Shown: positions 1-40,671 of the stretch, one piece after another
Numbering within the stretch: the first letter of the stretch is position 1
How the letters are laid out: each line of letters starts with the position of its first letter
DNA from: Alphaproteobacteria bacterium
GTDB lineage: Bacteria; Pseudomonadota; Alphaproteobacteria; UBA828
DNA length: 64,000 nucleotides
NCBI GenBank assembly: GCA_022820945.1
Contig: JAJEEP010000140.1
Span: 1 to 64,000 of the forward strand
Reading direction: 5' to 3'
The notes under the pieces: generated by a model
Databases searched by the model: none
The model's input: only the letters and a program-made list of their open reading frames with translations
Told to the model about the DNA's origin: nothing
Position numbers and translations under genes: made by a program

Positions 1-184
1 ATCGGGCAAACGCTTCGACGCACACTGTCGGCCGGACGGCGCCGCCCTTCGGGTCGCGCCCAGGCGCCCGCCCGCGGCGTCGCGGGCCTCAACCGTATTC
101 CCCGATACGCTTTTCGGCCCGCTCCTTGCGGATCGAACGCCTGGGCGCGACGCAGGCCGCGACTTTGGTGAGAAATGCGGGCTA
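1..184. repeat. Partial copy of a MITE-like structured repeat, truncated by the window edge
   Basis: Aligns without gaps to 38393..38576 with about 17 mismatches in 184 (hand count). Contains the 14-bp stem gtcgcgcccaggcg (53-66) / cgcctgggcgcgac (138-151) and inner hairpin gcccgcg-gcgt-cgcgggc (70-87). Confidence 0.85.
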
Positions 185-37802: not shown

Positions 37803-38237
37803 CTAGCGCGCTTTCGCTGGCGGCGGAGAGCCCTTATCGAACGCGGGCAGGCCGTCCGGGAACCGGACCCAGGGATGCCGGCTCTCGTTCCAGACCACGC
37901 GAGAGGGCGCGCCGAAGCCGGGCGCGCCGAAGCAGCCAACGGCCACGCCGAAATGGTCGGGGCGAAGCTCGGCAAACCAGTAGACGCTGGTGCCGCACGA
38001 GGGGCAGAAGTTGATCGAGACCGTCAGCCCCGAATCCGCCACCCGCGTGTAGTTGCCCGCCGCGCCCTCCGCCGAGACCGCCTCCTTGCGGAAGTAGGCG
38101 CCGACGCCGAAGGGGCTGCCGGTGCGGCGCTGGCAGGCGATGCAGCTGCAAGCGACGACGAGGTCCGGATCGCCGGTCGTCGTCACCCGCAGCCCGCCGC
38201 AGCCGCATGTCGCCCGGTGAGTGTCTTGGCCGGTCAT
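37803..38237 (-). CDS. GFA family (glutathione-dependent formaldehyde-activating-like) protein
   Basis: CGCGGLRV...CSCIACQRRTGSPFGVGAYF...FCPSCGTSVYW. Confidence 0.9.
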   Translation of the reverse strand: MTGQDTHRATCGCGGLRVTTTGDPDLVVACSCIACQRRTGSPFGVGAYFRKEAVSAEGAAGNYTRVADSGLTVSINFCPSCGTSVYWFAELRPDHFGVAVGCFGAPGFGAPSRVVWNESRHPWVRFPDGLPAFDKGSPPPAKAR

Positions 38238-38308
38238 GGGAGCCTCCGCCGCTCGATTCGATCAGTCCACCTTAGCCGCCCGGTTGGCGCTCGCATACCG
38301 CGCGGTTG

Positions 38309-38574
38309 GCCCGCATGTCTCACCGTGGTCATGGTCTGCGCGGCGCCATCCGGCCGACAGGGCAGGAAAGGCGCGCAGCGCGATGCGGGGACATCGGGCA
38401 AGCGCCTTGACGAACCCTGTCGGCCGGAGGGCACCGCCCTTCGGGTCGCGCCCAGGCGTCCGCCCGCGGTTTCGCGGGCCTCAACCGTATTCCCCGACAC
38501 GCTTTTCGGCCCGCTCCTTGCGGATCGAACGCCTGGGCGCGACGTAGGCCGTGACCACGGTGAGACATGCGGGC
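38309..38574. mobile_element. MITE-like / structured palindromic repeat element, 266 bp
   Basis: Perfect 23-bp TIRs gcccgcatgtctcaccgtggtca (38309-38331) / tgaccacggtgagacatgcgggc (38552-38574). Nested stems ccggccgacaggg (38350-38362) / ccctgtcggccgg (38415-38427) and gtcgcgcccaggcg (38445-38458) / cgcctgggcgcgac (38530-38543). Second copy at 1..184. Confidence 0.85.
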
Positions 38575-38589
38575 TAGGGTTCTCGCATC

Positions 38590-40671
38590 ATGCGCCCGGC
38601 GATCCTCAATCCGCTGTTCGCGCCGGCGACGGTGCTGCCGGGGGTCGGCGCCCGCACGGCCACGGCCTACGAGAAGCTGGCCGGGCCGCTGGTGGTGCAC
38701 CTGCTCTGGCACCTGCCGTCCGGGCTGATCGACCGGCGCCACGCGCCGAAGGTGGCCAAGGCCGAGGCCGGCGCCACAGCGACGCTCACCGTGCGCGTCG
38801 ATCGCCACCAGCCCTCGCCGGACCGCAGGCGCCCCACCAAGGTCTACTGCTCCGACGAGACGGGATCGCTCACGCTGGTCTTCTTCCACGCAAAGGGCGA
38901 CTGGCTGCGGCAACGGCTGCCCGAAGGCTCGGTGCGGGTGGTGAGCGGGCGCGTCGAGCACTACGGCAGCGAAATCCAGATGGCGCATCCGGATCACATC
39001 GCACCGCTGGATCAGCGCGAGAGCGTGCAGACGGTCGAGCCGATCTATCCGCTGACGGCAGGCGTCACGCTGAAGCCGATGACCCGCGCGGTGCGCGCCG
39101 CTCTGGCGCGGGCGCCGGCGGTGCCGGAATGGATCGAGCCCCGCCTGGTCGAGGCGCGCGGTTGGCCGGCGTGGAACGAGGCGCTCGCGGCCGCGCACGC
39201 GCCCGAGAACGCCGCCGACCTGGAGCCCGACACCCCGGTGCGCTCCCGCCTCGCCTACGACGAGCTGCTGGCGAACCAACTCGCGCTGGCGCTGGTTCGG
39301 CGCTCCGCCAGAGGCGGACGCGGCCGTGCCATCGAGGGCGACGGCCGGCTCCGCCGCGCGGTGGAGGCGGCCCTCCCCTTCACCCTGACCGAAAGCCAGC
39401 GCGCCGCCGCCGGCGAAATCGCAGACGACCTCGCGAAGGAGCGCCGCATGCTTCGCCTGCTGCAGGGCGATGTCGGCAGCGGCAAGACCGTGGTGGCGCT
39501 CTACGCCATGCTGGTCGCGGTGGAGGCCGGCGCGCAGGCCGCGCTGATGGTGCCGACCGAGCTGCTGGCGAACCAGCACGCGGAAACGCTCGGCGCGCTG
39601 CTGGAAGGCAGCGGCGTCGCGCTTGCCCTGCTCACGGGACGGGAGAAGGGGCGCGCCCGCGAGCGGACCCTGGCGGCGCTCGCCGCCGGCGAGGTCGATA
39701 TCCTGGTCGGCACACACGCGCTGTTTCAGAAGGGGGTAGACTTCAAGGACCTCGCGCTGGCCGTGGTCGACGAGCAGCACCGCTTCGGCGTTCACCAGCG
39801 CATGTTGCTCGCGCGCAAGGGGCCGGCGGCGGACCTGCTGGTGATGACCGCGACCCCGATCCCGCGCTCGCTGGTGCTCACCGCCTACGGCGACATGGAC
39901 GTCTCGCGCATCGAAGGGCGGCTGCCGGGCCGGGCCGCCGTCGCCACCCGCGCCATGCCGCTGGAGCGGCTGGAGGAGGTCGTCGCCGCCGTGCGCCGTG
40001 CGCGCGGCGCCGGCGCCAAGGTCTACTGGGTCTGCCCGCTGGTGGAGGACTCGGAGGCCGTGGACCTCGCCGCCGCGACCGACCGTCACGCCAGGCTGGC
40101 CGAGGCCTTCGGCGCCCGCGTCGCGCTGATCCACGGCCGCATGAAGGGGCCGGAGAAGGACGCCGCCATGGCCGCCTTCGCGGGCGACGGCGCCGACATC
40201 CTGGTGGCGACGACGGTGGTCGAGGTGGGCGTGGACGTGGCCGCGGCCACCATCATGATCGTCGAGCACGCGGAGCGATTCGGCCTCGCCCAGCTGCACC
40301 AGTTGCGCGGGCGGGTCGGGCGCGGGGCGAAGCCGGGCACCTGCCTGCTGCTCTACGCAGCACCCCTGGGCGAGACCGCGCGGGCGCGGCTCAACATCCT
40401 GCGCGAGACCGACGACGGCTTTCGCATCGCCGAGGAGGACCTGCGGCTCCGGGGCGCCGGCGAGCTGCTAGGCACACGCCAGAGCGGGATGCCGGCCTTC
40501 CACCTCGCCGATCTCGCGGTGCACGAAGAGCTGCTCGCGGTCGCGCGCGACGACGTGCGCCTGGTGCTGGAGCGCGACCCGGAGCTGGAAGCCGAGCGCG
40601 GCCAGGCGCTGCGCACGCTGCTCTACCTGTTCGAGCGCGACATGGCGGTGCGCTACCTGCGCTCGGGCTAG
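38590..40671 (+). CDS. recG: ATP-dependent DNA helicase RecG
   Basis: LLQGDVGSGKTVVALYAML; VVDEQHRFGVHQR; MTATPIPRSL; QLRGRVGRG. Confidence 0.96.
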   Translation: MRPAILNPLFAPATVLPGVGARTATAYEKLAGPLVVHLLWHLPSGLIDRRHAPKVAKAEAGATATLTVRVDRHQPSPDRRRPTKVYCSDETGSLTLVFFHAKGDWLRQRLPEGSVRVVSGRVEHYGSEIQMAHPDHIAPLDQRESVQTVEPIYPLTAGVTLKPMTRAVRAALARAPAVPEWIEPRLVEARGWPAWNEALAAAHAPENAADLEPDTPVRSRLAYDELLANQLALALVRRSARGGRGRAIEGDGRLRRAVEAALPFTLTESQRAAAGEIADDLAKERRMLRLLQGDVGSGKTVVALYAMLVAVEAGAQAALMVPTELLANQHAETLGALLEGSGVALALLTGREKGRARERTLAALAAGEVDILVGTHALFQKGVDFKDLALAVVDEQHRFGVHQRMLLARKGPAADLLVMTATPIPRSLVLTAYGDMDVSRIEGRLPGRAAVATRAMPLERLEEVVAAVRRARGAGAKVYWVCPLVEDSEAVDLAAATDRHARLAEAFGARVALIHGRMKGPEKDAAMAAFAGDGADILVATTVVEVGVDVAAATIMIVEHAERFGLAQLHQLRGRVGRGAKPGTCLLLYAAPLGETARARLNILRETDDGFRIAEEDLRLRGAGELLGTRQSGMPAFHLADLAVHEELLAVARDDVRLVLERDPELEAERGQALRTLLYLFERDMAVRYLRSG

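Follow-up and report, generated by a model that had tools for sequence, protein, structure and literature searches.

A mobile non-coding element with conserved twin arms and varying ends upstream of recG in an alphaproteobacterium

We found that a 266-bp sequence just upstream of recG, in the 64,000-nucleotide stretch of DNA which was analysed as a whole (the window), is very likely a mobile element. Our overall explanation, to which we give a probability of roughly 0.78, is that it represents a mobile non-coding element of about 266 bp with conserved twin arms and exchanged ends, for which the transposase is supplied elsewhere and in which the arms are kept as a folded strand. Under this explanation a transposase encoded elsewhere (here of IS1380 type) would recognise the terminal inverted repeats (TIRs) and move the element, the core would have been passed between transposases by acquiring new ends and, as the part of which we are less sure, the arms would be under selection for folding as a single strand, probably of RNA.

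Results and discussion

The initial annotation had described perfect 23-bp TIRs and nested stems at 38309–38574, and our repeat, stem and folding analysis agrees. The 23-bp TIR, GCCCGCATGTCTCACCGTGGTCA, lies at 38309–38331 and 38552–38574, no match to it is expected in shuffled sequence, and the pairing of the two ends reaches 39 nt at 87% identity. From left to right we find the left TA target duplication, which now reads TG (38307–38308) and is TA in the empty site of relatives; the left TIR, of IS1380 type (38309–38339, + strand); arm A, a folded module of ~98 nt with its sense on the + strand (38340–38437); a 7-nt linker (38438–38444); arm B, a homologous folded module which is inverted and has its sense on the − strand (38445–38543); the right TIR (38544–38574, − strand); and the right TA target duplication (38575–38576), identified by empty-site comparison. 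The internal stems pair 38340–38362 with 38415–38437 and 38445–38462 with 38526–38543, and folding energies on the two strands gave z = −12.6 and −14.7 against dinucleotide shuffles. The absence of any ORF or transposase inside was likewise borne out: no reading frame stays open in all of the 39 full-length copies (264–319 bp) which we extracted from eight genomes of the genus, so the element is non-coding. A second copy, the 5′ part of which is missing at the contig start, occupies positions 1–184 (+ strand) with 91% identity to element positions 85–266, its arm B lying at 53–151 (− strand).

The element fills the gap between recG (38590–40671, + strand; NCBIfam RecG equivalog, 1047 bits) and a divergent gene with a GFA domain (37803–38237, − strand; Pfam PF04828), and 15 nt separate its end from the ATG of recG at 38590, confirming the position just upstream of recG that was first reported. 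The site was empty in 7/7 relatives, with the empty sequence reading GCGCGG-A-TA-GGGT and the filled one GCGCGG-T-TG-[266]-TA-GGGT. Insertion, confined to this species, took place at a TA 13–15 bp before recG and duplicated it, and the 15 nt adjoining the ATG were retained. Lying 15 nt from the ATG and folding very strongly, the element could be taken for a cis-regulatory leader RNA that is conserved at recG, but we regard this as extremely improbable and have ruled out a conserved leader, as the element is missing upstream of recG in all seven relatives, other copies sit at other places and there is no match in Rfam. Promoter and terminator consensus sequences were looked for and none were found; the element may, as the initial annotation proposed, carry or disrupt the recG leader, and may have an incidental effect on recG expression. 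Just downstream of recG, the window also contains the remnant of a DDE transposase (PF13751, PF01609; 40855–41580, − strand).

By BLAST, the genome from which the window comes contains at least seven full-length copies of the element and several partial ones, and several of its contigs end within copies. Together with the 39 copies from eight genomes, which have their TIRs in common, this supports the mobile-element reading of the initial annotation. TA flanks were found on the left of 31 and on the right of 32 of the 39 copies (~80% on both flanks), with a target preference of Y-TA-R. Searches with the joined flanks as queries turned up empty orthologous sites for 14 additional copies, in 51 loci, making 15 copies including the one at recG. 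At conserved targets the empty site holds a single TA (for example at copies L073, L064, L076, L062, L047 and L078), and we therefore conclude that the element moves and duplicates TA; at 7/15 sites the relatives show no TA in register. The target duplication and the empty sites which the initial annotation had proposed as checks were thus both found. Six diverged empty sites had at first suggested that the TA belongs to the element and is no duplication, an idea which was dropped after more sites had been compared.

Some copies deserve separate mention. One (L008, G000:C172:123276-123541) lies four bases past an ATG from which the relatives continue reading (MLEVIDGGLRT...), so that a gene is probably interrupted there at its start. 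In genomes of the genus, truncated copies and full ones are of similar frequency, and G006 and other genus genomes (L135–L154) carry many solo ends, which consist of one TIR and 20–45 bp of the element followed by unrelated sequence.

The interior of the element consists of two homologous folded arms of ~98 nt, inverted to each other and 7 nt apart. Read inward from each end, arms A and B align without gaps in their apical part (CAGGAG..GCG..CGG..GACGC), which makes the element an inverted dimer. Compensatory change in the stems across homologs, which the initial annotation had named as a check, was found: in the whole-element fold within the genus, double changes occur in 24/98 pairs; when arms A and B are aligned, pairing holds in 97% of cells and double changes occur in 23/29 pairs, much of this signal being the single contrast of A against B; and in the alignment behind a covariance model of 61 arms (R2), 28/29 pairs have double changes, this alignment (A3) having been fitted to the model structure. 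A first model, R1, was built from arms of the genus only. With both models drawing on the genus of the window copy, arm A scores 104.1 bits with R1 and 101.1 bits with R2, arm B scores 91.9 bits with R1 and arm B of the second window copy scores 100.2 bits with R1.

R1 also finds twin arms, a plus match followed by a minus match 5–12 nt away in most cases, in other genera and families, with matches in 40/385 alphaproteobacterial genomes. Of 399 genomes of the phylum, 30 gave R2 matches, and half of these lie outside Alphaproteobacteria. These searches show that conservation of the arm sequence and its predicted structure reaches across Alphaproteobacteria and beyond, to other classes. One named carrier is Terrarubrum flagellatum 7MK25, where two glucitol PTS genes on plasmid unnamed3 have the element between them. 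Elements with the same TIR in Gammaproteobacteria and Acidobacteria gave weak arm matches of 27–29 bits (32.5 bits for L271), which is roughly what true arms score in antisense matches. The apical CCGAAGAGCGTAG....CTACGGTCGAGG of one Acidobacteria element (L243) is identical to that of a Defluviicoccus element (L220) except in the loop, and this makes it probable that the arms in these elements are homologous to the alphaproteobacterial core.

A separate class of ~180 bp has the same TIRs (L190, L192, L194, L196, L222, L224, L271, L277, L278, L281 and others). Its interior is homologous between Gammaproteobacteria, Acidobacteria, Fermentibacteria and Deltaproteobacteria, suggesting that this class has been transferred between phyla.

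In a position-by-position comparison the window TIR agrees with the ends of IS1380 elements of the genus at 18/22 positions. These elements, from G000 and G002, carry a PF13701 transposase, are assigned to the IS1380 family by NCBIfam and have the ends TARCCCGSATTTCTCACGA with TA on both sides. The element therefore resembles the IS1380 family (NF033539, PF13701) in near-identical ends (TARCCCGSATTTCTCACSA) and TA flanks within the same genus, but differs in having neither a transposase gene, as it is non-coding, nor a common interior, and in duplicating TA. For IS1247, a published IS1380 member, a target duplication of 5 bp is listed (PMC3281130). The element and the IS1380 elements of the genus have TA only and not a duplication of 4–5 bp as in IS1247, so the IS1380 clade of the genus differs in this respect.

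At least 119 contig stretches, from diverse phyla, contain the exact end TAGCCCGNATTTCTCACCA, often as pairs 50–350 bp apart with no gene between them. A PF13701 transposase lies within some of these pairs (L260 from Nannocystis, 1754 bp, and L285). Among the PF13701 elements of the genus, L293 is intact, with a length of ~1.65 kb. Among 385 alphaproteobacterial genomes, PF13701 was present in 18/23 with the TIR and 58/362 without it (p = 5e−10), an association which is partly trivial, since the IS itself carries the TIR, and for which IS load is a confounder. Taken with the shared ends, it is likely that an IS1380 transposase moves the element in trans. In G006, which has many copies, no IS1380 transposase was detected, consistent with loss. 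Two other origins were rejected: simple internal deletion of an IS1380 element of the genus, since the interior of these IS gives no arm match and intact IS1380 elements are without arms, and IS630 as the source of the window element's own ends, since IS630 (DDE_3) loci are without that TIR.

The core-bearing relatives have a total length of ~266–280 bp, and in most of them 31–35 nt (up to ~40 nt) lie between the start of the TIR and the arm. Judged from the sequences compared, the layout of the superfamily is fixed: TA, a TIR of ~33 nt, an arm of ~98 nt, a linker of ~7 nt, an inverted arm of the same kind, a TIR and TA. The TIRs themselves differ (TAGAGCATGATCTTCTCAGATTGAA, TAGCACCCACTATCAGGATTGG, TATACCAAGTCTCGATGATAGG, CTAGAGCGCGATGACGTGGG and more), and two genomes, G022 and G028, contain two TIR types each, showing that TIR sequences vary between lineages, and even within one genome, over a core whose predicted form is constant. 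IS630 elements of the genus are 1054 bp long, are flanked by TA and have the ends TAGAGCGCGATCCTATCTGATTGAA; the IS630 family (NF033545, PF13358) duplicates TA as the element does, and its ends (TAGAGC..GATC..) resemble the TIRs of core-bearing relatives such as that of G013. The G013 TIR agrees with IS630 ends at 17/22 positions and with IS1380 ends at 8/22, whereas the window TIR is of the other type and agrees with IS630 ends at only 8/22. Several other TIR types match the ends of neither family.

A conserved twin-arm core with exchanged ends is well supported by these comparisons, and the simplest reading would be that the core has been re-equipped with the ends of different transposons. 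The TIRs could instead have diverged gradually within one transposase family with no exchange of ends; many of them begin with TA-GAGC or TA-G, and the types which can be assigned to neither IS family would fit such a history. We consider this unlikely, though it keeps appreciable weight, as the IS1380-type and IS630-like sets are bimodal (17–18/22 against 8/22) and two TIR types occur in one genome. The wider proposal built on exchange of ends, that there is a class of mobile element defined by its structured core, an orientation-independent functional RNA which persists by borrowing the ends of at least two unrelated transposase families (IS1380 and IS630) and has spread across classes and possibly phyla, is more tentative and in our judgement falls somewhat short of an even chance.

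The form in which the arms might act was approached through departures from Watson–Crick pairing. Within the genus and with both strands pooled, G.T and A.C departures were equal (65:65). When each arm was read in its sense across genera, the inner helices contained 35 G.U and 5 A.C, counts which are not independent and come from 14 and 5 column types respectively, and the overall ratio was 84:30. This bias suggests that what is selected is a single strand in folded form, probably as RNA, although we are less sure of this point. Since the dimer is inverted, a transcript entering from either side meets a sense arm first, and an RNA function would therefore not depend on the orientation of insertion. 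A single RNA from one strand over the whole element was rejected, as the genus is strand-symmetric and the asymmetry appears only per arm in its sense orientation. Kissing loops between the arm tips, where CGGGGA and UCCCCG seem complementary, were also rejected, as changes in the loops do not covary.

The arms could alternatively act as DNA, with hairpins extruded at each end helping the transposase or a host factor to assemble both ends. The sense of each arm is carried by the strand that has its 5′ end at that end of the element, and a symmetric layout which places a single arm at either end, always ~33 nt from the start of the TIR, would suit such a role. We think it improbable, if still worth serious consideration, because elements with the same TIR and one arm or none exist and intact IS1380 elements have no arms. 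Minimal elements of ~50–58 bp, which are almost just two TIRs back to back, were found in several phyla (L171, L186, L206, L208, L211). As these TIR-only elements of ~52 bp exist, the arms seem to be dispensable for transposition and look like cargo.

That the ends suffice also fits an ordinary MITE. This would be a palindromic leftover which the IS1380 transposase carries passively, with a functionless interior in which palindrome correction at the DNA level (template switching, conversion) maintains the pairing. The strand symmetry of G.T and A.C in the genus and the many truncated copies and solo ends would be expected of such debris. However, the core is conserved across genera and the ends are not, spacing and total length are fixed, and unpaired letters of the internal loops (AGGA, GCG/CGG, ACGC) are kept where palindrome correction would erase mismatches; we therefore rate an ordinary MITE as distinctly unlikely, and below a role of the arms as DNA. 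Our preferred reading is still of arms selected in folded form. The initial annotation had offered a mobile element or a structured ncRNA family as alternatives, and both halves found support; as mobility and structure both apply, the choice between them was too narrow. That the interior is an inverted dimer of one folded arm, and that this core is kept while the TIRs change, goes beyond what could be read from the window sequence by itself.

Prokaryotic MITEs are short, multicopy, without a transposase gene, and have TIRs, a target duplication and a strong stem-loop fold (PMC10969869). The element is alike in all of this, with TIRs, target duplication, empty sites and no coding capacity, but its interior, an inverted dimer of one module, is conserved across genera and classes while the TIRs change. 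MITEs are usually regarded as debris and are defined by their ends. In this family it is the interior that is conserved and covarying, and the ends are exchangeable, which would mean that the core does something that is selected, and this raises the testable question of whether a non-coding element can parasitise several transposases in turn. Many copies occur per genome, where they break assemblies at contig ends and adjoin housekeeping genes. The family is missing from Rfam: neither the window nor the relatives gave a match at gathering score, nor anything meaningful at E ≤ 10. In the open-access literature we found no paper with this TIR, an IS1380-linked MITE, such a structured core or a matching intergenic repeat, in keeping with the first impression that no named family could be recognised. 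It is thus a large bacterial family which is apparently undescribed, and the covariance models make it searchable. REP/BIME, ERIC, Br-REP and RIME are, like the element, palindromic intergenic repeats, RIME and ERIC being compared by description. Rhizobial mosaic (RIME) repeats have two palindromes, and one TIR subtype may have an older name, for example among these mosaic elements. Consensus sequences of Br-REP (PMC5082802) are unlike the element.

Other small palindromic repeats were seen in and beside copies. Seven copies of 292–319 bp from the genus (L064, L065, L066, L067, L073, L082 and L049) carry an extra GC-rich hairpin of ~27–30 nt, GCGCGTCGCGCG...CGCGCGACGCG, at an arm tip, which is that of arm A in most carriers and of arm B in L049 and L066; this may be a second small palindromic repeat which lands in hairpin tips. 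The right flank of copy L031 (G005:C133), GGGCGTATCCGTTTCACACGGATACGCCC, is a multicopy palindromic repeat in G005 and its relatives.
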